In this document: positions 18,304-60,739 of the stretch, in pieces
Layout of the letters: the number at the start of each line of letters is the position of its first letter
Numbering within the stretch: position 1 is the stretch's first letter
Origin: a bacterium
GTDB taxonomy: Bacteria; UBP6; UBA1177
Direction: 5' to 3'
Assembly: GCA_016290135.1 (NCBI GenBank)
Contig: JAEESW010000012.1
Location: 1 to 60,739, forward strand
Length of the DNA stretch: 60,739 bases
Notes under the pieces: generated by a model
Told to the model about the DNA's origin: nothing
What the model saw: the letters and a program-made list of their open reading frames with translations, nothing else
Database searches by the model: none
Made by a program: the position numbers and the translations under genes

Positions 18304-19761
18304 TTATTCACTAGTTCTTTCACAGCTTTCCAGCTGTTCATTCATGCCGCCGACATAAGTTCCACGCTCTTTCAACTCTTCAAGAGGTGAAAAATCTTTT
18401 ATACAGTTTTTGTCAACCCAAAGGCTTGTCAAGCCCTTTCTATTCCTGAATGCTTCGGCATTATCTATGTTATTTGATCCGACATCCAATCTTTTGAGTG
18501 CCGGAAACGATTCATTGTCTGCCAACCCCGATAAATCTGTAATATAATTATAATTCAAGTACAATTCTTTGAGAAATTTAAGGTTTTTCATAACCGGAAC
18601 TTTTGTGATTTTATTCATAGCAATATCTAAGAATTGGACATGTTCTAATCCATCAAGTTTCATAAGATCGTTATCGTTTAACTCATTATTGTCAAACCAC
18701 AAAGTGTCAAGAGAATCTAATCCGTTTAACTCTGGCAAATTGCTGATATTGTTGAAACTTAACTCAAGAGTCTGTAACTTTTTTAGATTGAGTATTTCTC
18801 CTGGAATTTCTTCAATTTGGTTTTCGCTCAATCCCAAATAAGTCAATTTTGTCAAATTTGTGACAGCAGGAATATCTTTTATTCTGTTATGTTTAACATT
18901 AAGCATGGTTAAATTTATCAAGTCTTTCAATGGTGAAATATCTTCAACATAGTTATTACGAAAAAACAATTCTTTCAAATTTGTTAAAAATTTCAAAGCT
19001 GTAATATCTTTTACTCTGTTGTGAACAAAAGAGAAAAATTCAAGTTTCTGTAAATTCTCTATATTTTCAGGTAAAAACTCAATCTGGTTGTTCCCTAAGT
19101 CTAAAGTCTTCAGGTTTACAAGTTGTTCCACAGGTGAAACCTCTTTTAATTTTGTTTCTTCTATATTAAGGGTTTCAAGGGTCGTGAGAAGTGAAATCGA
19201 GCCGTCAAGACATGTCATGCTGGTGGCATCAATTACGATTTTTTTTAATTTTTTCAGTTTGGAAAGCGGAGTATAATCATATATTTTGCCGGTTGAAATT
19301 TGAACAGATTCCAAATTTATCAGTTTTTCAATACCGCGAATATCTTTGACAGACAAAAAAGTGATTTCTTTGATTTTTTCCAAATCTTCTTCTGTTAGTT
19401 CATAATCCTCATCATATCCGAGATCTTCCTTGATTTGAGATTCGAGTTTCGAAGAAGCGAAAAAACCTTCATAAGGTCCTGCAGGAATTTTGTCATAGCA
19501 GCGTTTATAGCCGTTGATAGGCTCTGTTTTTTCAAAAATCTCCTCAGCAGGTTCATCATCTGAATCCGAATCTAAAACTTCATCAAAATCATCAACAATT
19601 TCAGAGCCTTGCGAGTCGGAATCATCATCAACGATTTCCGAATCCTGCAAATCGATGTCTTCATCCGGCAGAATGTCGGTGTCGTTTGATGAGTGCGAGG
19701 AAGAACAGGAAAAAACCAGAAAAACCAATAAAACAGCTAATAAATTCAATATTTTTTTCAC
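18304..19761 (-). CDS. Leucine-rich-repeat lipoprotein (internalin-like)
   Basis: A 485-residue lipoprotein with a GTG start preceded by GAGGTGAA. The signal peptide ends in V-F-S-C and is followed by SSSHSS and an Asp/Glu/Ser stalk to about residue 80. From about 105 to 460 run leucine-rich repeats of the 21-23 residue type with L..L.L..N.I..I periodicity (for example LKTLDLGNNQIEFLPENI). LRR lipoproteins of this kind mediate protein-protein contact at the surface; no partner is suggested by context. The gene is more AT-rich than its neighbours. Its first 30 residues closely resemble those of the next gene upstream, from which it is 8 bases away. Confidence 0.85.
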   Translation of the reverse strand: MKKILNLLAVLLVFLVFSCSSSHSSNDTDILPDEDIDLQDSEIVDDDSDSQGSEIVDDFDEVLDSDSDDEPAEEIFEKTEPINGYKRCYDKIPAGPYEGFFASSKLESQIKEDLGYDEDYELTEEDLEKIKEITFLSVKDIRGIEKLINLESVQISTGKIYDYTPLSKLKKLKKIVIDATSMTCLDGSISLLTTLETLNIEETKLKEVSPVEQLVNLKTLDLGNNQIEFLPENIENLQKLEFFSFVHNRVKDITALKFLTNLKELFFRNNYVEDISPLKDLINLTMLNVKHNRIKDIPAVTNLTKLTYLGLSENQIEEIPGEILNLKKLQTLELSFNNISNLPELNGLDSLDTLWFDNNELNDNDLMKLDGLEHVQFLDIAMNKITKVPVMKNLKFLKELYLNYNYITDLSGLADNESFPALKRLDVGSNNIDNAEAFRNRKGLTSLWVDKNCIKDFSPLEELKERGTYVGGMNEQLESCERTSE

Positions 19762-19769
19762 ATTTCACC

Positions 19770-21911
19770 TCAGTTTTTATTTTCCTTCACTTCAATTCTC
19801 GGCATTCCTCTCAAACTTGCACCGAATTTCTCGCGCAGCTCTTTTATGATTTTCGGGAAGTTGCCGTTCGCTTCGTAGAATTTGTCTCTGAAAAATATGC
19901 CGTCACGCGCAATCCCTTTATCAATCACCGTGGCGAACATCACGCTGTCACTGTCAAATGTCGAAGTCATTTCGTCGTATTCACATTCAAAATGCTCTTT
20001 GTGAAACGGGCAGCCGTACCATTCTTCCCATATTCTTTCGTGGTTTACTACCAAATTGGCGAAACTTTTCTCGGTTTTCCACTGTCTTTTTGACGAAAGA
20101 ATCAAATCTTTAAGCTGTGGTTCGCTTTTATCCAACGATTTTAAATAGTTATTGACTTGTGCAGCTGTCGGGCAGTAGCCGTGATTTCCGAATTGTCCGA
20201 GTTCCCTCTCCGTGATGGTGCAGAAATAAACTCCGTTTCCGTCAAATTTAGGCAGAACTTTTTCCTCTTCGATTTTTTCCAGAATTTCTGGCGTTACTTT
20301 CGATGCAACAGGTTTTAGCGGCAAGGATTTGCGGCTAAGTTCTTCTTCCGTTGCAGGTTCCAACGGACAAACATGATTTTCTTCACAATAACATTTCCAG
20401 TCACGCATTATTGCATCTGTGGCTGCAATTTCTTTCCATAAATGCCATTTCCCCCAAAAGACATTGTAGCCCATTATGCTGTCAGGTAATGTTGAAGTCG
20501 TTTTGTCTACAGGGCAATAAGTCTTTTTCTTATCAAAACGGTAAAAACAGCCGATGACATCAACTGTTCCATCTGATAAAGTGAAGAATTCCTGATAGGA
20601 AACCTTATTACCCTGCAACATATCCATTTCCCATCCAAAAGCAGAACCCCTATTTTTTTCTGTTTCATATTCCGTGTATTTTGGATTTTCTAAATCTTTC
20701 AGATCTACTTCGACGAATTTCGGTTTTCCATGAATATTGTAGACAACACGATATTCGTTTTCCAAGTCGATTCTAGGGCTGTGACCGAGCTCTTCATTGC
20801 CGGATTCATCCTTACGGTTGAGCTTGAAACACTCGTCAATATGTTTTGGATATTTGCTCAGGTCACAATAATAAAGTTCCCTGTTGTTTGTAATGAAAGT
20901 TAAGTGATCTCCGACGATATTGCCTTCACCGGCGTAGTTGTTGATTCCGGCGAGTTCATGCCAAACCCAATCTTTTGAGGAAGCATAAACTGTCTTTTGG
21001 CCTTTAAGGCGCAACAGAGCCCAGTTTTTCCCGGCAAAAGGCGGGTCTGAAAACTCATCTTTTAACCCGTAATTATCTCGAATCAGCTCATAAAAATAGC
21101 CTTTTTCCGTCCTTAACACGGAAACCGTAAAGACTTTATAACTGTCAGGATAATCAGCAGGATAGCGGTCGAAAACTTCTACAATGTATCTGTTTTCGTT
21201 GAACGACAGGTATCTTGACTGACCGACATTGGTATATTCATCTTTCTCAGGATCATATTCCACAATCAAGCCGCTGTGCAGGAACCGCATTCCGGCGACA
21301 CCATCATACATTCCGTGTGTCCAGAATACCCCCATGCCGACATCGAATTCGTTTACTGTCAGCAACCGGTCACAACTGCTGATAAAGGTGCTGAGTTCAG
21401 CTTTTGTTTTTGCATGCATATCCGGCAGTTTGCATGGCCATGGGTAGCATGAGCGTTCTTTTGTCTGGTTCGGATTTTTATCCTGTTCTTTCAAATAGGC
21501 TTGCTGCTCCTCCCAATTTTCCCATTCCCAGATGTTGCGGACACACTGCGGGTCGTTTTCGGTGGGAGTGTCGCAGCCCGGGCGGCAGAAAGTCGGCTTG
21601 CCGTTTGCATCTTTGAAGGGAAAGGGGGTTTTGATCGTGTTTTCGTTGTAGCGGAGATCGAGGCAGGCTACATCTTCGTCTGAATCAGCATCGGTAACAC
21701 TGTATGAATCCGCATCCAAATCCGGTGTTTCATCCGAATCTTCAATAAAATCCAAATCTTCTTCCGAATCGGTGTCGTCGTCGGCAATGGTTTCGGTGCC
21801 ATCGGAATCAGAATCAGGAATAATGTCGGAATCTGCGGAAGAGTGCGAGGATGAGCAGGAAAACAGCAGAAAAGCCAATAAAACAACCGATAAATTCAAA
21901 AACCTTTTCAT
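19770..21911 (-). CDS. Cys-containing acidic-stalk lipoprotein of unknown function
   Basis: A 713-residue lipoprotein with GGAGGT before the start. The signal peptide, lipobox L-F-S-C and SSSHSS are nearly the same as in the downstream LRR lipoprotein. The stalk (about 25-80) is almost all Asp, Ser and Glu. The remainder is large, aromatic and contains more than a dozen Cys scattered in pairs (for example CRPGCDTPTENDPQC and CYCEENHVC), suggesting disulfides in an exported protein. I recognise no domain. AT-rich base use matches the LRR gene, with which it forms an operon. Confidence 0.75.
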   Translation of the reverse strand: MKRFLNLSVVLLAFLLFSCSSSHSSADSDIIPDSDSDGTETIADDDTDSEEDLDFIEDSDETPDLDADSYSVTDADSDEDVACLDLRYNENTIKTPFPFKDANGKPTFCRPGCDTPTENDPQCVRNIWEWENWEEQQAYLKEQDKNPNQTKERSCYPWPCKLPDMHAKTKAELSTFISSCDRLLTVNEFDVGMGVFWTHGMYDGVAGMRFLHSGLIVEYDPEKDEYTNVGQSRYLSFNENRYIVEVFDRYPADYPDSYKVFTVSVLRTEKGYFYELIRDNYGLKDEFSDPPFAGKNWALLRLKGQKTVYASSKDWVWHELAGINNYAGEGNIVGDHLTFITNNRELYYCDLSKYPKHIDECFKLNRKDESGNEELGHSPRIDLENEYRVVYNIHGKPKFVEVDLKDLENPKYTEYETEKNRGSAFGWEMDMLQGNKVSYQEFFTLSDGTVDVIGCFYRFDKKKTYCPVDKTTSTLPDSIMGYNVFWGKWHLWKEIAATDAIMRDWKCYCEENHVCPLEPATEEELSRKSLPLKPVASKVTPEILEKIEEEKVLPKFDGNGVYFCTITERELGQFGNHGYCPTAAQVNNYLKSLDKSEPQLKDLILSSKRQWKTEKSFANLVVNHERIWEEWYGCPFHKEHFECEYDEMTSTFDSDSVMFATVIDKGIARDGIFFRDKFYEANGNFPKIIKELREKFGASLRGMPRIEVKENKN

Positions 21912-29014: not shown

Positions 29015-29067
29015 GTCGTGCTTTTGTGTGCGGTGTTTCATTGAAAATCACATATTGGAGGAAAATT

Positions 29068-32000
29068 TTGAAAAGTCTGAAGATTTTGATGTCACTTTTT
29101 ATCGTCCTTATGACGAGTGCCGCTTTTGCGGGAACAGTTGCGGTATTTCCTATGGCTGCGGTCGAGGGTGACCGTCTTGCTGCCGAGGATATCGACACTT
29201 CGGTGGAAGAAGTCCTCGATGAGATAAAGGGCGCCGATGCTTCCATTTTTACCGATTCTATAGGCACTAAGGTCAAAAAGGCCCTTGCAAAATGCGGTGA
29301 GAACCTGGGCTGCCAGAAAAAATTCATCTCGAAGGCAAAACAGAAATCCGATTTTTATATTTTTTCCAAGATGAAATTCGTCAAAAAGAGCGGAAAAACG
29401 ATAGTCGAGACTTTCCTCATCGACGGAGAGGGCAACAATCTTGAAAAAGAGAAGGTGAACTTCGAGAAAGGCGCTTCGACTGAAAAGATAGCGTCGAAAC
29501 TTACGAAAGTCTGGACAAAAATGCTCTCGTCTCAGGTCACTGAAAAGAATGAACCCGAGGAGGAAGAGGAAGAACCTGTAAAACCGGCTAAAAAATCGAA
29601 TGCCGATTCCGCTATAAAAGAGGCGCTCGAAGCTTATGCGGAAGGCGATCTCAAAGCTGCGGACAAGGCGCTTGACGGCGCTGCGGACAGAGATGTCAAA
29701 GCGAAAGAACTCAGAAAGAGCATCACGGAGATCGCAAAATTCGTCCAGCGCGCAAACGCTGCGATAAAGGCTAAGAACTACGACGAAGCTATTCCGATAA
29801 TCGCAAAGGCGGAAAAACTCGACGAAGCGATCCTTGAACTCGGTTCAAGCTCAAAATACCGTGTTTACAGAAAGGATGCTGTCGAGAGAGTCGTATACTC
29901 CGATCCGAGCGAAAAGGATATCCGCACGGTCGATACTATCCATGCGAAATTTGAGAAACAGCGCGAAAAACTGAGAAAGGAAAGGGCGAAAGAGATCGCT
30001 GAGACCGATGCATGGCTCAATGCGAGGATCCTTGAAAGAGAAGCAAAACTCAAAAAATACGATGATGACTCCAAGGCTGCGAAACAGCAGAAGGACACTG
30101 AATACAAAGAGCTTTCGGAAAGGATCAAAGCTATGAAGTATCAGTGGGAGAAGGACGACAGCGAGATCGAACAGAAGATCGTCGAACTCGAGAACAAACT
30201 CACTCTTTTCGAGCAGAGGGAAAAAGGTGTAACGAAAGGTTCGAACGCTCTTTCGGCCCAGTACGAAAAGGAAATGGCAAAAGAGATGGCCGAAACCGAC
30301 AAGAAATACGGCGACATCCTCAAAAAGATGAAAGAGGAAAAGGAAGCTCGCTACAAAAAGCAGGCTGACGAACTTGAAGCCGGCAACAAAAAGACCGAGG
30401 CAGCGGTTCTCGCTCTTGAAGCAAAGAAAAAAGCGAACGAAGACAAGATCTCCGAACTTGACAAGAAAATGACCGGCGAGCAGGAAAAGTTCGACGAGAA
30501 CGAAAAGCAGATCATGTCCAAGAACGAAGAAGTCAGGATGAAAAACGAGGACGAGGACAGAAAATACAAAGTCGAAGTAGAGAAAGAATATCAGGCTAAG
30601 TTCGACGACCTCAACAAAAAACTTCAGGATTACGATGCTCAGGAATCTGAAGAGCGTGAAAAACTCAAAAAATACGATGCTGCGACTGAAGAATATATGT
30701 TCAAAAACGCAGAAGTAATGCAGAAGTATCAGGAAGATATCGAAAAGGAAAGGGCCGCGGCGGATGCTGAGTGCGCAAAGAACAGAGAGGCGGCTTCGGC
30801 AGATGCGGAAAAGGCTTTCACCGAAGAACTCGAAAAACTGAACAAGGAAAAGGCCGATATCGAAGCTAAGATCGCTGAAAAAGAGACTCCGGCTCTTAAA
30901 AAACAGCTTGATGCGGCCAACAAAAAGATCTCGAAACACGAAGGCGGAAAAGACGGCTTTGTCGCTAAGAAAATGGCGGCTGTCGAGCAGGCATGCGAAA
31001 ACAAGAGCATGGAGATCGACATGAAACTCGCCAAGAAGAGCGACGAACTCAACAAGGACAATACGAAATATCAGAAGAACCAGCAGGCCGAGAAGAAAAA
31101 AGCCGAAGCCAACTTCAAGGCTTTCCAGCAGAGAAAGGATGCTTTCAAAAAGAACATCGACAGCCAGATCGCAGCGGCTCAGAAAGACAGAGACCGCAAG
31201 ATCGAAGCCCGCGAGAAAGAGCGCAGCAAACAGTCCGAAACCTGGAACAAAGAGGCTGCTGCAAGACAGAAAGATCTCGACAACAAACAGCGGACTGACA
31301 AAAATGCTAAAGACCGCCTTGTCAAGGAAAACGAGGGTATCGATGCCAACATCGCTATAACCAACGCAAAGTGGGCTGACAAGAGAGACGATATCCAGGT
31401 AAAGAATCAGGAAGACAACCAGAAATACGAGAAGACCTGGCAGGAAAAATACGACAAGACCGATGAGGAATACAAAGCTAAGAAAGAAGCAATAGAGAAC
31501 AAGTATGCTCAGAAACAGGTCGATGACAAAGACGCTCAGAAAAGACAGAAAGAACAGTGGGAAGAGGAAGTCCAGAGACTTAACGATGAAAAACAGAAGA
31601 GAAAGGAAGAGCGTCAGGCTATCCTTGTAGCTGAACAGACCAAATGGAAAGAGAAAAACGAAAAATGGGACGAGGAAGAGGCTCAGAGAAAAGAGGAAAA
31701 GGCGCAGTTCTCGAAAGATCTGAAACAACTTGCGGCTGAAGACAAGAAGGAAGCTGTTGCAAAGAAGAAAGAAGCTGAGCAGAATTACGAGGATAAGACC
31801 AAAGAGATCGACGAAAAAGAGCTCGAACAGATCCGTGCTAAATTCAAAGACGAATACAAAGTCACGAAATCGAGAGAAGTCGTTGATGTCAAAGGATCGA
31901 CCGATATCTACAACCTCAAGGCGGATGCTTTTGCGAAGAGCGGCCTTCAGAAGCTCAACGAAAAGGATCTTATCGGTGCAAGAAGAGCGTTTGCGGAAGC

Positions 32001-32208
32001 TCTCAGGATCGACAGAAACAACCAGATCGCGCTCAACGGTATGAACTCGATCAATGTCACGGCTAAATCGATGTACTGGGAAGCTTACGGAAAAAGAGAG
32101 ACCGACAAGGCAAAAGCTAAAGAGATCTTCACGCTTCTCACAAAGACCTTGATGCCTTCAAACGAATTTTTCCTTAAAGCGAAAACGGCTCTTGAGGAGC
32201 TTCAGTAA
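29068..32208 (+). CDS. Large secreted coiled-coil protein with TPR-like ends
   Basis: A 1046-residue protein. I choose the TTG at 29068 because GGAGG sits 6-7 bases before it and a signal peptide (KSLKILMSLFIVLMTSAAFA) follows directly. Residues about 22-165 look like a TolB/CsgG-type N-terminal domain (GTVAVFPMAAVEGD, DFYIFSKMKFVKKSGKTIVETFLID). Two TPR-like helices follow (about 185-260). Then some 650 residues are almost wholly Lys/Glu/Asp/Gln/Ala with no Pro breaks, a very long predicted coiled coil. TPR-like sequence returns at the C-terminus (GARRAFAEALRIDRNNQIALNG). It could be a long periplasmic or envelope-spanning fibre. No known family is assigned. Confidence 0.75.
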   Translation: MKSLKILMSLFIVLMTSAAFAGTVAVFPMAAVEGDRLAAEDIDTSVEEVLDEIKGADASIFTDSIGTKVKKALAKCGENLGCQKKFISKAKQKSDFYIFSKMKFVKKSGKTIVETFLIDGEGNNLEKEKVNFEKGASTEKIASKLTKVWTKMLSSQVTEKNEPEEEEEEPVKPAKKSNADSAIKEALEAYAEGDLKAADKALDGAADRDVKAKELRKSITEIAKFVQRANAAIKAKNYDEAIPIIAKAEKLDEAILELGSSSKYRVYRKDAVERVVYSDPSEKDIRTVDTIHAKFEKQREKLRKERAKEIAETDAWLNARILEREAKLKKYDDDSKAAKQQKDTEYKELSERIKAMKYQWEKDDSEIEQKIVELENKLTLFEQREKGVTKGSNALSAQYEKEMAKEMAETDKKYGDILKKMKEEKEARYKKQADELEAGNKKTEAAVLALEAKKKANEDKISELDKKMTGEQEKFDENEKQIMSKNEEVRMKNEDEDRKYKVEVEKEYQAKFDDLNKKLQDYDAQESEEREKLKKYDAATEEYMFKNAEVMQKYQEDIEKERAAADAECAKNREAASADAEKAFTEELEKLNKEKADIEAKIAEKETPALKKQLDAANKKISKHEGGKDGFVAKKMAAVEQACENKSMEIDMKLAKKSDELNKDNTKYQKNQQAEKKKAEANFKAFQQRKDAFKKNIDSQIAAAQKDRDRKIEAREKERSKQSETWNKEAAARQKDLDNKQRTDKNAKDRLVKENEGIDANIAITNAKWADKRDDIQVKNQEDNQKYEKTWQEKYDKTDEEYKAKKEAIENKYAQKQVDDKDAQKRQKEQWEEEVQRLNDEKQKRKEERQAILVAEQTKWKEKNEKWDEEEAQRKEEKAQFSKDLKQLAAEDKKEAVAKKKEAEQNYEDKTKEIDEKELEQIRAKFKDEYKVTKSREVVDVKGSTDIYNLKADAFAKSGLQKLNEKDLIGARRAFAEALRIDRNNQIALNGMNSINVTAKSMYWEAYGKRETDKAKAKEIFTLLTKTLMPSNEFFLKAKTALEELQ

Positions 32209-53220: not shown

Positions 53221-55809
53221 ATGGCTCAGAAGAGATCTGGTTCAAAACCATCTAAGTCACGTAAAATATTGAGAATAACTTTGATAGTTGCGGCTGCTTT
53301 CGTTGTTGTGTGCGCGGTAATTGCCGTTTCTGTCTATTTCAAATTCAAAGCCGAGATCCCGGCACTCAACACGGTGAGCGACTACAAACCTGATGCCGGC
53401 ACGAAAGTCTATTCCTACGACGGAGAGCTCATTGCCGAGTTTTACCACGAAAACAGAAGGATAATCATTCCTTACGACAAGATCCCCGAAAAACTGCGTC
53501 TCGCCTTTGTTGCAGGCGAAGATTCATCGTTCTACACCCATCACGGCATTGATCCGTTCGGCATCGTCCGCGCGGCGTTCAAATACATGACTACCGGCAT
53601 CAAGCAGGGCGGAAGTACGATAACGCAGCAGCTTTCGAAGTCGTTCGTCGGAACAGAAAGGACTTTCAGCCGTAAGATCAAGGACATGATCCTTGCGATG
53701 GAACTTGAGAAGCACCTTTCAAAAGAGGAGATACTCTATCTTTACTTGAATGAAGTCTACCTGGGAAGCGGTGCATACGGAGTCGAGGCGGCTTCGCGGA
53801 AATATTTCAGCAAGCATGTCTGGGAGCTCGAGATCGACGAGATGGCGATCCTTGCCGGACTTCCGAAATTTCCCTCTGCAGCTTCTCCCATTCTCAATCC
53901 CGACAAAGCCCTCCGTCGCAGGAACTACGTTTTGAAGAGGATGTTCGAAGACAAATACATCACCAAGGCGGAATACGACGCAGCTTTGGAAAAACCGATA
54001 AAAACGAACGTCCAGAAAGAGCTTTTCCTCGACAAAGCGCCGTATTTCAGCGAAAAAGTGCGCAGATACCTGCTTGACAAATACGGCTTCGACAAACTTT
54101 ACAAAGAGGGCCTTACTGTCCAGACAACAGTCGATATGCGCGCCACCCGCTATGCACACGAGGCTATCTTCTACGGCATCCGCGAACTTTCGAAACGTCA
54201 GGGATACGCGAGAGGAGAGGAGGACAGCTACAAAAAAGGGGAGAAATTCGGCGGCGAAGTGACAAACCCGCTCTATTCGATAAATCTCAAAAAAGATCTC
54301 GATACCTATTTGAAACGGCATGAAAAGGTCTTCGGAAAGATCACGGAAGAAACGATAAAAAGCGGCATTTACTATCAGGGCGTCGTTATTGAAACAGCTG
54401 AAAAAAGTGCGCTCGTTCAGGTCGGCGAAGTCAAGCGCAATATATATCTCGAAGACTTGGGCTGGGCGCGTCCGTGGAGCCCGACAGGTTCATATGCTGT
54501 CGTAAAATCGGTCAAGGATGTCTTCAGACCGGGAGATGTCATTCTCGTCAGAGCGACAGACAAAGCGGGAACGCGTGACCAGTTCGATTTCCGCAACTAT
54601 TCGAAAGAACTCGGGAAAGACTTCTATTTTGTTCTTGAGCAGATCCCCTCGTCTCAGGCGGCGATAATCGTGAAAGACCCTTATTCCGGCTATGTCAAGG
54701 CGCTTATGGGCGGTTACGACTTCGAGATCAGCGAATTCGACCGCACGACACAGGCATGCCGTCAGCCCGGAAGCTCGATAAAACCGATCTTCTACACACT
54801 GGCTCTTGAAAAACGGGGCGGCAGATCCCCGCTTCTCACCCCTGCATCAATGGTGCTTGACGCCCCCGTCACTGTTACCGACACCAATTTCAAGCCGGCG
54901 AACTTTGAAAACACTTTCAAAGGCGAAGTTACGGTCTGGGAAGCGCTCATTCATTCGATGAACACTCCTGCAATCAGAGTCCTGCAGAAGCTCGGGCTGC
55001 GCGATGCGATAGACGGCGCGAAGGCTTTGGGCATCAAAAGCGAGATCAAGCCTGAGTTCGGCAGCATGCTCGGTTCAAGCTGTCTCACGATAGACGAACT
55101 TACCGACGCCTACGGACACTTCCCCAACATGGGACGCGCTCCGCATACGACCTACATCAGAAAGATCTACGACAAAAACGGCAGTGTTCTGGAGGACAAC
55201 ACCGTTTTCTACGATCCCTACATCTCCGCTCCGTCAAAGGTCGAACGCCTGCTCTATTTTGCAAAAAGAGAGGAAAATCAGGCTCTTACGCCTCAGACAG
55301 CATACATCACCAACAAGATCCTTGAAGACGTCGTCAACCGCGGAACAGCGGCGAGCGTCAGAGGATTCAACCACTACAAGTGCAAAAAGAGCAACCTCGA
55401 CGAAGAGGAAGAAGGCGAGGAAGGCGTATGCAGCCGTCACGTCGCGGGAAAAACAGGAACGACAAACGACTATTTCGACGCTTGGTTCATCGGATATTCG
55501 CCCAATTTCGTGGCAGGCGTATGGGTCGGCAATGACCAGCACGGCCGTCCGCTCGGCAGAGTCGAAACAGGCTCAAAGACTGCGCTTCCGATCTGGCGTG
55601 ACTTCATGGAACGGTATCTCAAGAACTTCCCGCCGACAGATTACGAGATCCCGGCAGGCGTCGTAGGCAGGAACATCGATCCGAAAACAGGTCTCGTTTC
55701 CGATAAAGACGGCGTCAGAATGTATTTCCACTCCGGCAGCGAACCGAACAAGACCGTCGAAGAAAAAGATGTCCTTGACCCGACCCAGGGCGCGGAAGAT
55801 ATCTTCTAA
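53221..55809 (+). CDS. Class A penicillin-binding protein (PBP1A type)
   Basis: A bifunctional peptidoglycan synthase of 862 residues. A basic N-terminus and one membrane segment (about 18-42) anchor it. The glycosyltransferase 51 domain has Glu100 in VAGEDSSFYTHHGIDPFG, GGSTITQQLSK and YLNEVYLGSGAYGVEAA. The transpeptidase domain has Ser518 in the SxxK box of RQPGSSIKPIFY, the SMN motif in HSMNTPAIRVL, and AGKTGTTNDYFDAWFIGY. It polymerises and cross-links glycan in the periplasm. GGAG precedes the start, 16 bases after rbfA. The LpoA-like lipoprotein at 2432 could be its activator, by family analogy only. Confidence 0.95.
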   Translation: MAQKRSGSKPSKSRKILRITLIVAAAFVVVCAVIAVSVYFKFKAEIPALNTVSDYKPDAGTKVYSYDGELIAEFYHENRRIIIPYDKIPEKLRLAFVAGEDSSFYTHHGIDPFGIVRAAFKYMTTGIKQGGSTITQQLSKSFVGTERTFSRKIKDMILAMELEKHLSKEEILYLYLNEVYLGSGAYGVEAASRKYFSKHVWELEIDEMAILAGLPKFPSAASPILNPDKALRRRNYVLKRMFEDKYITKAEYDAALEKPIKTNVQKELFLDKAPYFSEKVRRYLLDKYGFDKLYKEGLTVQTTVDMRATRYAHEAIFYGIRELSKRQGYARGEEDSYKKGEKFGGEVTNPLYSINLKKDLDTYLKRHEKVFGKITEETIKSGIYYQGVVIETAEKSALVQVGEVKRNIYLEDLGWARPWSPTGSYAVVKSVKDVFRPGDVILVRATDKAGTRDQFDFRNYSKELGKDFYFVLEQIPSSQAAIIVKDPYSGYVKALMGGYDFEISEFDRTTQACRQPGSSIKPIFYTLALEKRGGRSPLLTPASMVLDAPVTVTDTNFKPANFENTFKGEVTVWEALIHSMNTPAIRVLQKLGLRDAIDGAKALGIKSEIKPEFGSMLGSSCLTIDELTDAYGHFPNMGRAPHTTYIRKIYDKNGSVLEDNTVFYDPYISAPSKVERLLYFAKREENQALTPQTAYITNKILEDVVNRGTAASVRGFNHYKCKKSNLDEEEEGEEGVCSRHVAGKTGTTNDYFDAWFIGYSPNFVAGVWVGNDQHGRPLGRVETGSKTALPIWRDFMERYLKNFPPTDYEIPAGVVGRNIDPKTGLVSDKDGVRMYFHSGSEPNKTVEEKDVLDPTQGAEDIF

Positions 55810-55892: not shown

Positions 55893-55936
55893 ACCCGCGT
55901 TTTTTTTGTTGTTGTTTTAATTTTATGGAGAAAATC

Positions 55937-56128
55937 ATGTCACGCAAATGTGAAATATGCGGCAAAAAACCGATGTTCGGTCACAATGTAAGCCACTCGA
56001 ACAACAGAACCCAGAAGATTCAGAATCCGAACATTCAGAAAGTTAAAATAGTTGAGAACGGCACCGTAAAAACGGTCACCGTATGCTCGCGCTGCCTTCG
56101 TTCCGGAAAGGTTCAGAAAGCCGTCTAA
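55937..56128 (+). CDS. rpmB: 50S ribosomal protein L28
   Basis: A 63-residue L28. It begins SRKCEICGKKPMFGHNVSHSNNRT, a typical start, and keeps Cys pairs (CEIC and CSRC) that suggest a zinc-binding form. The start at 55937 follows ATGGAGAAAA; the four-codon upstream extension is part of the ribosome binding site. It is monocistronic. Confidence 0.95.
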   Translation: MSRKCEICGKKPMFGHNVSHSNNRTQKIQNPNIQKVKIVENGTVKTVTVCSRCLRSGKVQKAV

Positions 56129-56165: not shown

Positions 56166-56371
56166 CCGAATTTAAACAATAGGATTTTTGTATGCTTCGG
56201 CGGCGGCTCGAGGTTTGGCCGTTCAGTTTTTCCTCGACTTTTTTCACTAAATAGTTGGGTTCGACTTCGAGAGCTGAGGCAAAGATCTCTTGAAAACTCA
56301 CCCCATTGTTTTGTGAAACTGTGCGCTGATTAGCATCGCGGATTGAGAGTGCTTAGTTTGATGTTCAAAAT
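56166..56371 (-). CDS. Possible short ORF or gene remnant downstream of the GTPase operon
   Basis: A minus-strand frame open for about 69 codons, overlapping the end of the 263-residue gene and starting at best with a TTG at 56371. Its first part reads like protein (NNGVSFQEIFASALEVEPNY, then LVKKVEEKLNG); the last part is Arg/Ser-rich and looks like shifted reading. No Shine-Dalgarno sequence stands out. It may be a decayed C-terminal fragment or a small gene with a non-ATG start. No family is recognised. Confidence 0.3.
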
Positions 56372-57156
56372 TTTTTACCGATTTTTTTTATTAAGTCGGT
56401 TAAGAAATATGATTGATGTGGGACCCCCTGTGCGGGAGTGCGAGTGCCTACATAATCACTCACCATCGTTGGTTGAACAATTTCTTGTTTAACCAGATAG
56501 CGTTTTTTTTCGGTTTCATGGGAGAAATAGAAATCGTTTTTTAAGTGAAAAATTTCTTTCAAATCATCACTTTTGTCTTGAGAATTGTTGACTTTGACAA
56601 CAAGGGAATCTTCAATTTTTTCAGAATCATTAGAATTACACTTACAATGTGATGCCGCATCTAAAAATTTCCAGAAATTTTTGCCGTCAATATAGTATCC
56701 GAAAATTTCATCTTTTGTATCGGGAATCAAGGAGTCTGCAAGTAGTTCTGCAATAGTTTTTTCATCTTCATTTTTGAAATAGGAATAGAATTTCTTGAAA
56801 GTTTCTTTTTCCTTTTCTTCAAAGGTGAAGGCTATGTTTATAATAAAATTTTTGCCAAGATCTTTGTTTCTGTCGTCGGCATAATTATATTTTAAACGCT
56901 TGGATTCCAGTTCTTCGTCAGTGTAAGAATACTTTAAACGCTTGTATAACAAAATAAAACATCCAGGATCAATCTTGCAGTATTTGGAAATATTGCCAAC
57001 GACATTATCGATGTAACCTGTTTCAAAGATTTTTAATATGGGAGAATCCTGAAGATCTTCCGGACGAAAATCATTCTGAAATTGAGACTTATCGAAGTAG
57101 CCGTAATGAAAACCGGGTGCTGATCTGTTGTAACTCGCATAAATATGAGTTTTCAT
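56365..57156 (-). CDS. Unknown third component of the GTPase operon
   Basis: A 263-residue soluble protein of no family I recognise. It starts MKTHIYASYNRSAPGFHYGY and has a middle rich in Lys, Glu, Phe and Tyr (FTFEEKEKETFKKFYSYF) plus a CKC pair. AAGGAG precedes the ATG. It follows the small GTPase by only 2 bases, so it is translated with it. In published GTPase-centred conflict operons the partner proteins often carry an N-terminal domain with a short SxxxxPGF-like start; that resemblance is slight and speculative. Strongly AT-rich, like the two GTPase genes. Confidence 0.65.
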   Translation of the reverse strand: MKTHIYASYNRSAPGFHYGYFDKSQFQNDFRPEDLQDSPILKIFETGYIDNVVGNISKYCKIDPGCFILLYKRLKYSYTDEELESKRLKYNYADDRNKDLGKNFIINIAFTFEEKEKETFKKFYSYFKNEDEKTIAELLADSLIPDTKDEIFGYYIDGKNFWKFLDAASHCKCNSNDSEKIEDSLVVKVNNSQDKSDDLKEIFHLKNDFYFSHETEKKRYLVKQEIVQPTMVSDYVGTRTPAQGVPHQSYFLTDLIKKIGKKF

Positions 57157-57158
57157 TT

Positions 57159-58229
57159 TTACTCCTTAAATCCTAACGGATCTTGAAAAATTTCGAAACC
57201 ATCGCCTTCGGTTTTGAGATTTTTTATGATTTTTTTCTTTTGTTCCATAAAATCATATAAAGAAGCAGCTCCGCCGAAGAATTCTGTAAAAAAACATACA
57301 AACCAAGATTCTTCCTTTTTTGCTTTTTCTGCGACACTCAACAGATACGCCAGAGAATAGAGGATGGGTTGTTCACAATACAAGGGAGAGTATTTGTTGT
57401 CTTCCTTTTTGGGAGCTTTGAAAATATATATGGGATTTGCCGGTATTCCTGCGGCGTTTTCTTTTATTTCTCCATTTTCATCGGTTTCAAAACGGCTGAA
57501 TTCAATTCCTTTCGGGCCAAAAGAAAGGATTGGAGTTATTGCAACTTCAAAAATCTTCCGATATTTGTCTGACACAAAATCGAAAACTTTTTTATAGGCG
57601 GCATGTATTTTCTCATTTACAAGATTCATTTTTCCGGCATTGTAATATTTTTCACATTTAAGAGGGACAAACATTATCATAATTGGAAAAGTCTGGTCGT
57701 TTACATCGCTACTAAAAGATTTTTGCAGCATTTCTGCAATAGCATCACAGAAATTTCTCTTATTATTGTATCTGCCTACAGAATCGCTTTTGTTGTCACG
57801 AGTTTGCTCCATGAGAAAAGGGGTGTCAATTGTAATCATAATGATGCGGCTTTTTTTCATTATCTCGCTGACATCTCCGCGATTGTTTTTTATCCATTCT
57901 CCCGGATAATCGATAAAGTTCAGATTGATAAGGCTTTTTCCCTTCTGTAACTTCTTTAATTGAATTGAGATATTGTATTCATTTATTTCTGAAGTGCCGC
58001 TATAGTCTGCGGTATCTTCAGAGAAAGTTCTTCCTTTATCTACGAGATTAAAAGAATCTTTTATTTCATTTAGCTTGTCTTCCAGAATAGGAGATGTCGC
58101 ATCAGAAGAAAAAATAGATAAATCCTGCTTAAATACTTCCCCGAAGCAATCTTTCATCGCTGCAATAACGCTTGTTTTTCCGCAGCGTTTTCCCCCGAAC
58201 ATCATAACATTGACTTTTACTTCTTCCAT
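57159..58229 (-). CDS. P-loop GTPase (TRAFAC-like, possibly DO-GTPase type)
   Basis: A 356-residue predicted GTPase. The P-loop is GGKRCGKTS (residues 12-20), followed by a Switch II-type DYPGEW (Asp107-Gly110) after a beta-strand LINLNFI. A classical NKxD is not obvious; FVPLKCEKYY at about 200 is a candidate equivalent. The protein has no membrane segment. GGGAGGT lies just before the ATG and the gap to the upstream large GTPase is 12 bases. The layout resembles the double-GTPase family seen in bacterial conflict systems, but I cannot confirm that without a profile search. Confidence 0.75.
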   Translation of the reverse strand: MEEVKVNVMMFGGKRCGKTSVIAAMKDCFGEVFKQDLSIFSSDATSPILEDKLNEIKDSFNLVDKGRTFSEDTADYSGTSEINEYNISIQLKKLQKGKSLINLNFIDYPGEWIKNNRGDVSEIMKKSRIIMITIDTPFLMEQTRDNKSDSVGRYNNKRNFCDAIAEMLQKSFSSDVNDQTFPIMIMFVPLKCEKYYNAGKMNLVNEKIHAAYKKVFDFVSDKYRKIFEVAITPILSFGPKGIEFSRFETDENGEIKENAAGIPANPIYIFKAPKKEDNKYSPLYCEQPILYSLAYLLSVAEKAKKEESWFVCFFTEFFGGAASLYDFMEQKKKIIKNLKTEGDGFEIFQDPLGFKE

Positions 58230-58241
58230 AATTTTACCTCC

Positions 58242-60512
58242 CTAGTCTTGCGATATTATAAAAGATTTTTGATTGTCGTTCTCTTTCAGCAGTGACACGA
58301 GTTCGTTCCACTGCTTTGCCACTGTTACAAGGCCGCTTTTTGCTTCGTATTCATCTTTCCAGATCAGATGCATCCAGTCTTCATAAAGGTAACGCCACTG
58401 AGTTTGTGTCTCGTCGTTTCCTCCGGCGTATGTTAGTCTGTCGTAGAGGTCTTTTATTGCGGCAAACATTGAAAGATTTGGAACAATGTTTAGAGCAGAG
58501 ATCTGATGATCTATATTTTCCTTTATTGTAGACGCACACTCCTGAAGCAAATCGATAATTTCATGTGCTACGGCTTCTTTGTCGGAAAGCGGATTGTAAA
58601 TTGTTGGAATAGTACCCGAGAGTGCCGAATCTATCGGATCAAGCTGGTTGCGGATCTCATGAATCAGAAATCCTTGAACATTTATTGAATACTCATTGAA
58701 TTTCATCAAAGCGTCGGCCAGAATCGGATATTTTTCTTCAGCATTAGTCTTTTCAAGGAATCGTGTTATCCACTCAGAAGAAGATGTCTGATCGCTAAAA
58801 GGTTCGATTAAAGAGAGATTGCCGAGATCTGGATCTGATAAAATATGGAGAACTTCCTTTTTCATGTTTTCGATTACGCTGTTCAGCACGTTGTTGAGTT
58901 CATTGAAGTCGTCAATGATTTTTATACGCATAATATTGGTCGAATCTTCATATACATTCAGCTGATTTTTATTTCCGTTGCAGAGCATTTCTATTATTTC
59001 TTCTTTTGATGGGATACACTTTGTCGTTATGTTTTTGAGTTTTTTGTTGCTTGCTTCTTCAAATTCTATGCAAGGTTGATTGCGTAGTTCGTTATATTTA
59101 ATGAGGAAAAGGTCTCTGAGTTTATTCAGCAATCTTGCATTGGTTTTTCCAATTTTACTGTAGAACTGGCGTTTCATATCTTCCGAAGCGGAATTTGCCA
59201 AGGCTTTTTCGGTGCCATTACAGATCTGATGGTATGCTGAATATGAATTTTCACCCAACTTATTGAGTTTTTCTATCAGCATCCTGTCAACAGCTTCGAT
59301 TCTTGAAGCCAACTGCTCCAAAACGGGAACAAGTAGCTTTTTTTCAACTTCATCATCTGAGAAGCAGTCTACATCCAGAACTTTTGCGACAGGATAATCG
59401 CCTCTTTCTGCCAGCCTGACTATATCGGGAATAAAAGCTGAGTTCTTACCTTTCCCTGAATTTACACGGTTTATAACCCAAAAGAGCATTTCTTTGGAAT
59501 ATTCTGGGGTTACTCTTGCCGAAATCTTTTTTATAACATCTATTTCGTCACTGCTTATCCGTGGACGGTATGCATCGGGTCTAAACATAAAAATGATGGC
59601 ATCACTGTCGTTTTCAACCGTGTCAAGCATTTTTTCTTCCGTTGCAAGAGAGGTCGTGCCGATTCCTATTGTATCGACGAGTTCGATTTTTCCTGTGTCG
59701 GAGTGGGGAAAACTGCACATTATATCGGCAAATTTGACTCCTAAATAGAGGAAATATTTTTCAGATGGATTCCCATTTTTGTATTGAGCAACATAACGCT
59801 CTATTTCTGATTCGGAAACGGTTTTTTGTTCTCCTAAATAGGGTGAATAATTGGAATAGTGTTCTACATATTTTGATAAGTGCTCGAGGATAGATTTGCT
59901 TTCGACATCATCCATAAGAATGGTGCTACGAATGGATGATATGTCTATATTCGGTATCTCACTCGCTGAATTTATCCTTTTTATGTCGCTTTTTGAACCG
60001 TTATTTATTTTATCTATATATTTGTTGACGTTTCCGACCATTTCGGATTCATTGAAGAAATTGATCGTTGCGATAATCTTACTGCCTGAACAGTTATGAA
60101 TGACAGATTTCGTTCCAGTGCAGTCAGATCCGTCAGAAGCTGGAATAATATCCCCGTTCAATCCGCTGATTCTCTGCATTACAAGGCTTTTTCCCTGTCC
60201 GGCTCTGCCGACAAAACTGATGTTGAGATTATCACGACCTAGACGCTTTATCAGCAGATCCAGTTTTTCCACATACTTGTTGAAAGCGGAGTGAAAATCT
60301 TCGGTGGAAATAGCTGTGATTCCATTGATTATTTCCTGATTACCTTGTATTGCGGCAAACTTTTCCGGGTTGTTGCGGAGCATTGATTTGAATCTATCAA
60401 ACTCAGCGACATCTTCTTTAATTTTGCTGTAACGTTCTTTTTGTTCCTTCAAAATTTTGATTTTGCTTTTTCTTAAAGCAATGATCTGGTCGATTTTTGC
60501 AGAAATGTTCAT
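58242..60512 (-). CDS. Dynamin-like large GTPase
   Basis: A 756-residue protein. An N-terminal coiled coil (about 1-95) leads into a GTPase domain with P-loop GRAGQGKS (102-109), the G2 Thr in DCTGTKS (around 132), Switch II DTIGIG (280-285) and WVINRVNSGKG (around 345-355) in place of NKxD. From about 400 to the end it is helical with conserved-looking hydrophobic heptads, as in dynamin-like or septin-like mechano-GTPases. No membrane segment. TAGGAGA precedes the start. First gene of a three-gene operon. Several bacterial dynamin-like proteins protect against phage or membrane damage; that role here is inference. AT-rich compared with the rpmB side. Confidence 0.82.
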   Translation of the reverse strand: MNISAKIDQIIALRKSKIKILKEQKERYSKIKEDVAEFDRFKSMLRNNPEKFAAIQGNQEIINGITAISTEDFHSAFNKYVEKLDLLIKRLGRDNLNISFVGRAGQGKSLVMQRISGLNGDIIPASDGSDCTGTKSVIHNCSGSKIIATINFFNESEMVGNVNKYIDKINNGSKSDIKRINSASEIPNIDISSIRSTILMDDVESKSILEHLSKYVEHYSNYSPYLGEQKTVSESEIERYVAQYKNGNPSEKYFLYLGVKFADIMCSFPHSDTGKIELVDTIGIGTTSLATEEKMLDTVENDSDAIIFMFRPDAYRPRISSDEIDVIKKISARVTPEYSKEMLFWVINRVNSGKGKNSAFIPDIVRLAERGDYPVAKVLDVDCFSDDEVEKKLLVPVLEQLASRIEAVDRMLIEKLNKLGENSYSAYHQICNGTEKALANSASEDMKRQFYSKIGKTNARLLNKLRDLFLIKYNELRNQPCIEFEEASNKKLKNITTKCIPSKEEIIEMLCNGNKNQLNVYEDSTNIMRIKIIDDFNELNNVLNSVIENMKKEVLHILSDPDLGNLSLIEPFSDQTSSSEWITRFLEKTNAEEKYPILADALMKFNEYSINVQGFLIHEIRNQLDPIDSALSGTIPTIYNPLSDKEAVAHEIIDLLQECASTIKENIDHQISALNIVPNLSMFAAIKDLYDRLTYAGGNDETQTQWRYLYEDWMHLIWKDEYEAKSGLVTVAKQWNELVSLLKENDNQKSFIISQD

Positions 60513-60623: not shown

Positions 60624-60728
60624 GATTCCTGATTCCTGATTCCTGATTCCTGATTCCTGATTCCTGATTCCTGATTCCTGATTCCTGATTCCTGATTCCT
60701 GATTCCTGATTCCTGATTCCTGATTCCT
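60624..60728 (+). repeat. Simple sequence repeat, 15 x GATTCCT
   Basis: Fifteen perfect head-to-tail copies of the 7-base unit GATTCCT, 105 bases, then GATAATTTTAT. Every plus-strand frame meets TGA within 21 bases, so the tract is not translated on that strand. The minus strand (AGGAATC units) is stop-free, but with the present copy number it has no start codon in the window. Copy-number changes would alter 5' leader length or promoter spacing. Confidence 0.95.
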
Positions 60729-60739
60729 GATAATTTTAT

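Follow-up and report, generated by a model that had tools for sequence, protein, structure and literature searches.

The stretch of DNA analysed here, called the window, is one entire contig (G000:C16, 60739 bp) of the genome (2.47 Mb, 98% complete) of a gut-type bacterium, and it carries an operon of three genes, designated A, B, and C (Table 1), which are all encoded on the minus strand and are separated by gaps of 12 nt (A-B) and 2 nt (B-C). The GC contents of these genes (A 0.387, B 0.356, C 0.333) and their GC3 values (A 0.40, B 0.34, C 0.33) are far below those of the remaining long ORFs in the window (0.485±0.034 and 0.568±0.061, respectively), the sole other comparably AT-rich gene being that of a leucine-rich-repeat lipoprotein (18304-19761). 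Both the arrangement and the deviating composition agree with an earlier note on this DNA, which had described three minus-strand genes with gaps of 2 and 12 bases, more AT-rich than their neighbours, and the coordinates are the same. The lipoprotein gene belongs to a second AT-rich minus-strand pair (18304-21911), together with a gene for a 713-aa lipoprotein without known family, and this pair was possibly acquired like the operon itself. The window further encodes a 1060-aa coiled-coil-like protein without Pfam family (29026-32208), in a region with a very strong AT skew (0.48-0.54 from 30 to 32 kb). On the left side of the operon, the DNA common to the congeners stops at ~56192-56238, past rpmB, while its right flank is absent because the contig breaks at 60739 beside the (GATTCCT)n array, which probably broke the assembly at this end. 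A promoter and terminator scan gave no signal above chance level.

Table 1. Features of the operon and its flanks (positions in the window).
Feature	Position	Strand	Description
Penicillin-binding protein gene	53221-55809		Flanking gene
rpmB	~55925-56128	plus	Encodes ribosomal protein L28; borders the variable locus on the left
Dispersed element copy	56309..56331	minus	Just downstream of C; consensus ~TCCGCAACGCTGATCAGCGCACGGTTTCACAAAAYAAGGG
Gene C	56365..57156	minus	263 aa; predicted alpha/beta protein without known family
Gene B	57159..58229	minus	356 aa; DO-GTPase2-family GTPase as judged from PF19993 and motifs
Gene A	58242..60512	minus	756 aa; dynamin-superfamily large GTPase as judged from motifs, profiles, and fold; predicted helical N-terminal region, G domain (residues ~90-380), and long helical region towards the C-terminus
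Heptamer array (GATTCCT)15.4	60624..60731		Upstream of A; contig end 8 bases further

Protein A contains a P-loop (G1, GRAGQGKS) and a G3/Switch II motif (DTIG), and the G4 position is occupied by an invariant N, usually as N-R/Q, in the alignment of its homologues, the numbering of which leaves out the initial Met. The key motif residues of both A and B are invariant or near-invariant across distant homologues. The window protein itself has no Pfam match above the cut-off, Dynamin_N (PF00350) included; among its homologues, 18 of 20 match Dynamin_N at E<1 (best E 2.4e-10), and the family profile recovers mitofusin-1 (4e-5). The predicted structure (pLDDT 76) shows the G domain and the long helical remainder listed in Table 1, and a Foldseek search with this model returns SynDLP (E 4e-9), BDLP (5e-8), a bacterial dynamin pair (5owv/5oxf), and IniA, all with a probability of 1.00, with LeoA also among the fold matches. 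Global TM-scores with known dynamins are low (~0.25), and the agreement concerns the kinds of domains and their order rather than the overall pose. As judged from profile and predicted fold, A should be regarded as a GTPase of the dynamin superfamily.

The sequence of B assigns it to the DO-GTPase2 family: it scores 29.4 bits against PF19993 (cut-off 27), all 17 B homologues in the alignment match the same model at E<1, and no second DO-GTPase2 match occurs in the genome. Its motifs are GGKRCGKTS (G1), DYPGEW (G3), and the G4-like PLKCEKY, of which G1 (GKT/S) and G3 (DxxG) are conserved in the family, and a zinc-ribbon match was not found with Pfam. The earlier note had read P-loops and Switch II motifs in two of the genes and had called their products a dynamin-like protein and a second GTPase lacking NKxD. 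The motifs are indeed present (GRAGQGKS/DTIG in A, GGKRCGKTS/DYPG in B), and both assignments are upheld, that of A by fold and profile and that of B by the DO-GTPase2 profile; the case of B being devoid of a GTPase fold, which the note had allowed for, does not apply to this GTPase-family protein (PF19993). NKxD is missing as described, but the G4 position is not simply lost, since the B homologues share an invariant P-x-KCE-x-Y there.

The third position of the operon is occupied by either of two families, C in Firmicutes and this genus and C' in cyanobacteria and Actinobacteria. A profile comparison between them is not significant (probability 2%, E 0.023), with the aligned stretch lying at the same position in both, and each of them has a small domain whose first strand follows the pattern xIYVxS. 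Of 22 third proteins, 17 have a clear C-terminal transmembrane segment, two have a weak, Ala-rich one, and three have none. Firmicutes C homologues end in a hydrophobic segment; C of the window has no transmembrane segment, and both copies of the genus lack it and terminate instead in a short, cationic, amphipathic-looking tail (YFLTDLIKKIGKKF in the window). The predicted structure of C is an alpha/beta fold (pLDDT 70) without fold match among solved or viral structures, and the profile searches assign the protein to no family (with NCBIfam likewise giving nothing useful), as had already been remarked in the earlier note. At one locus (L042:4599-6982), a single A-B pair is followed by two third-position genes in tandem, of which the first encodes a long repetitive acidic C-terminal extension.

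A view on other genomes shows that the three genes stay together elsewhere, a point on which the earlier note had asked for a check. An A homologue is present at 30 loci; at 25 of them the next gene downstream, on the same strand, is B, and at 24 of these 25 B is itself followed immediately by a third gene. The order A-B-third gene is thus present in 24/30 A-bearing loci, which are spread over four lineages (Cyanobacteria, an actinobacterium, rumen Firmicutes, and this genus). B is missing from the A-bearing loci L044, L045, L047, L048, and L050, and the A proteins of L048 and L050 are distant paralogues. B homologues are found in rumen Selenomonadaceae, Clostridia, an actinobacterium, a Nostoc plasmid, and many cyanobacteria, the cyanobacterial label of the B-carrying genomes being derived from the Nostoc match among other signs. 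The distance matrices of A and B co-vary strongly (Mantel r 0.95, 17 loci, 0/5000 permutations), also within the cyanobacteria alone (r 0.86, 2/5000 permutations). The trio is thus a recurring module. It is uncommon overall, with a B of its kind in 5/386 genomes spread over the tree, and common in cyanobacteria (24/59 genomes); one cyanobacterial genus carries A in all seven sampled genomes, with an in-frame stop codon in some. No relatives of the module were found in phage records and viral contigs.

Within its own genus, the module is present in one of the 14 other genomes (G009) and absent from the remaining 13. Five congeners show an empty site, in which rpmB is directly followed by an ABC-ATPase gene, and the G009 copy sits at a different site, between tgt and AbiEii/AbiEi/ORF6N genes. 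The copies of the window and G009 are 92.3% identical over 4228 bp, with dS values of 0.246 (A) and 0.196 (B) as compared to 0.93 for the core penicillin-binding protein gene beside the site. Patchy presence, the empty site, differing insertion sites, low dS, and foreign composition strongly support a horizontal transfer of the module as a unit, which confirms the transfer claimed by the earlier note; the conserved core genes that this note had named as contrary evidence are not what is found, as 13/14 congeners lack the module. The dN/dS ratios between the two copies (A 0.105, B 0.048, C 0.217) are low and show that selection maintains all three proteins. C is the fastest-diverging of the three, with a different tail in each of the two copies. 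These features of C and the foreign composition might also be expected of a decaying passenger without function, an explanation which we consider scarcely credible and largely refuted by the selection test, as dN/dS is 0.05-0.22 and the frames are intact in both copies.

The two copies further share their flanking repeats. A similar heptamer array also precedes A in G009 (L076:2773-2852), with 11 units compared to 15 in the window, and the dispersed element TCCGCAACGCTGATCAGCGCACGGTTTCACAAAAYAAGGG is also located downstream of C in G009. Counted with <=3 mismatches, this element occurs once in the present genome, beside the operon, 13 times in G009, and nine times in G014. Shared array and dispersed element fit a transfer from a G009-like relative. 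The element contains a 12-bp palindrome and is often located just 3' of variable genes (ORF6N, YhcG, AbiE), sometimes 1-2 kb from another copy of equal orientation, as in cassette arrays (L076:7106, 8755; L100-L107). It is not claimed to be an integron attC site, as the core-site motif was not seen.

The interval between rpmB and the ABC gene represents a variable insertion hotspot of the genus (window 56192 onward, L071, L068, L109). In G012 it is occupied by AT-rich genes of glycosyltransferase type, and in G002 by type III CRISPR genes (Cmr1, Csx1-type CARF-HEPN). The ABC gene of the present genome lies on contig C39, where a HerA-type ATPase and the nuclease YhcG (PADLOC PDC-S02) are encoded ahead of it. 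Provided that the two contigs adjoin as the corresponding regions do in the congeners, HerA and YhcG belong to the same island as the operon, a linkage drawn from synteny. A PADLOC match to MzaA in L074 was disregarded, since the protein is probably a housekeeping sigma factor, encoded beside a primase-like gene. The G009 genome additionally contains a row of genes (L050:3823-11201, contig 9) in which a distant A paralogue (754 aa) is accompanied by three dynamin-like GTPases (573, 859, and 258 aa) that match PADLOC LeoA/LeoBC (1e-13 to 1e-17), forming an Eleos-like four-GTPase cluster.

The hotspot neighbours HerA, YhcG, AbiE, and type III CRISPR genes point to a possible role of the module in defence or stress, as suggested in the earlier note. 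The proximity to known defence genes, which this note had proposed to check, is accordingly seen in part, with AbiE in G009, HerA/YhcG, and the type III CRISPR system in G002, but most distant loci are devoid of a defence island, and no consistent defence neighbours were seen at the cyanobacterial and Selenomonadaceae loci. The presence of A in all seven genomes of one cyanobacterial genus would also suit a housekeeping role. Membrane remodelling is a general activity of dynamins, and the module may instead be an accessory machine of membrane maintenance, in which A would reshape or mend membranes during physiological stress, with B as its regulator and C as its anchor, and which spreads because of its benefit in some habitats. 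Its frequency in cyanobacteria, which have internal membranes and many dynamin-like proteins (PMC5827413), and the lack of steady defence neighbours there would suit this explanation, whereas the very patchy occurrence in the genus, the recent transfer, the variable hotspot beside defence genes, and the plasmid copy in Nostoc argue against it, and we regard it as rather unlikely, though the strongest of the alternatives.

The unity of the module, the families of A and B, the usual single membrane segment of the third protein, the transfer, and the purifying selection are established here; we infer a physical complex, an order of recruitment, a polymerisation on the membrane, and a trigger. The third protein would tether the complex to the cytoplasmic membrane at its inner face, normally via one C-terminal transmembrane segment and in the case of the window C probably via the amphipathic tail or its partners. 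B would serve as a GTP-dependent switch that senses or licenses, and A, once released, may polymerise on the membrane and seal, remodel, or block it when a phage infects the cell or the envelope is damaged. Among tested proteins, B. subtilis DynA comes closest to such an outcome: it forms clusters at the membrane and delays phage lysis (PMC8844932). We consider it about an even chance that the operon encodes such a horizontally mobile membrane module of three proteins, in which C docks, B switches, and A is the membrane effector under phage or envelope stress. The conserved order A-B-third gene in 24/30 loci, the co-variation of A and B, their family assignments, the transmembrane segments, low dN/dS, the low dS of A and B, the empty site and the hotspot, the DynA precedent, the defence-type neighbours, and the distant A paralogue among three dynamin-like proteins matching PADLOC Eleos models are counted in its favour; the window C without transmembrane segment, the missing steady defence neighbours in cyanobacteria and Selenomonadaceae, and the lack of phage or viral relatives are counted against it. 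More tentatively, and with somewhat less confidence, the module may represent an undescribed class of membrane-acting immune or stress machines, in which a DO-GTPase switch and an anchored docking protein control a dynamin-like effector and the family of the third protein is swapped between phyla.

The published DO-GTPase systems are defined by a DO-GTPase together with GAP1 (N, M, and C domains); they contain two DO-GTPase paralogues in 38% and zinc-ribbon fusions in 60% of cases, a GASH or FNIII component, and variable effectors, and hardly occur in cyanobacteria (Kaur et al. 2020, PMC7159879). The module resembles them in the DO-GTPase as a switch, the third gene downstream, the mobile neighbourhoods, and the frequent membrane-spanning component, but differs in that no GAP1, GASH, or FNIII component and no zinc ribbon were found, and by its one DO-GTPase, its constant dynamin-like partner, and its frequency in cyanobacteria. 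A profile search found no GAP1-M in eight carrier genomes, and therefore the module is not regarded as a member of the DO-GTPase/GAP1 systems, although B itself falls into their GTPase family; neither C nor its relatives match GAP1 domains, and GASH or FNIII occur neither among the operon genes of the window nor among the Pfam matches shown for the family alignments. A divergent member of these systems, in which C would be a reduced GAP1 and A the variable effector, could be proposed from the score of B above the DO-GTPase2 cut-off, the position of C, downstream of the DO-GTPase where GAP1 is typically found, and the membrane-spanning parts often present in the published systems (PMC7159879), but is improbable in view of the missing GAP1 matches in any third protein, the single DO-GTPase without zinc ribbon match, the constancy of the dynamin, and the common occurrence in cyanobacteria, where GAP1 systems are nearly absent (PMC7159879). 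Apart from the module, adjacent pairs of DO-GTPase2 matches were observed in cyanobacterial genomes without GAP1-M (G135:C70:21673-24098; G145:C10:55918-57334), which represent a further arrangement of two GTPases.

Eleos/LeoABC systems likewise consist of dynamin-family GTPases encoded in operons on mobile islands, and their LeoBC model is weakly matched in the A family (14/20 homologues). The operon content differs, and when the window was tested with the PADLOC Eleos models, A matched only LeoBC at an insignificant level (E 0.062) and B and C matched none. These weak matches and the presence of LeoA among the fold matches might suggest a LeoABC-like vesicle-release or secretion system, with the dynamin shedding membrane vesicles; we regard this as very improbable, because the module has no dynamin pair, shows no LeoA plus LeoBC architecture, and contains no cargo genes.

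Among the bacterial dynamins, SynDLP, BDLP, the 5owv/5oxf pair, and IniA (the top fold matches) and DynA (compared from the literature only) share with the predicted A a large GTPase with a G domain and a long helical region, but A of the window is too remote in sequence for the Dynamin_N cut-off, and its partners are a DO-GTPase and an anchored protein instead of a second dynamin. Nearly all dynamins surveyed in a cyanobacterial review have an extended INALL P-loop, which the A family lacks (PMC5827413). The same review describes an 'HSR1 clade' of dynamins with a small GTPase gene downstream, which resembles the cyanobacterial A-B pairs and may overlap with them, but is described from cyanobacteria only, without a third gene or an assignment to the DO-GTPases (PMC5827413). 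No description of a dynamin paired with a DO-GTPase was found in the literature searched, and dynamins are nowhere mentioned in the DO-GTPase paper (PMC7159879), in accordance with the earlier note, whose authoring model could not name the pairing.

The module joins two fields of GTPase research that have been described apart, the bacterial dynamins, for which few regulators are known, and the DO-GTPases, whose effectors have only been guessed, and would extend DO-GTPase modules to cyanobacteria, which are said to nearly lack GAP1 systems. As a fixed operon in four lineages, it offers a testable set for the gating of a dynamin by a DO-GTPase and its recruitment by an anchored protein, and if the proposed working is true, it may protect cell membranes under attack. 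The cytosolic dynamin Drp1 is recruited by the tail-anchored receptors Fis1 and Mff, which have one C-terminal membrane segment, and the likeness of this arrangement to the module would be an analogy of working only.
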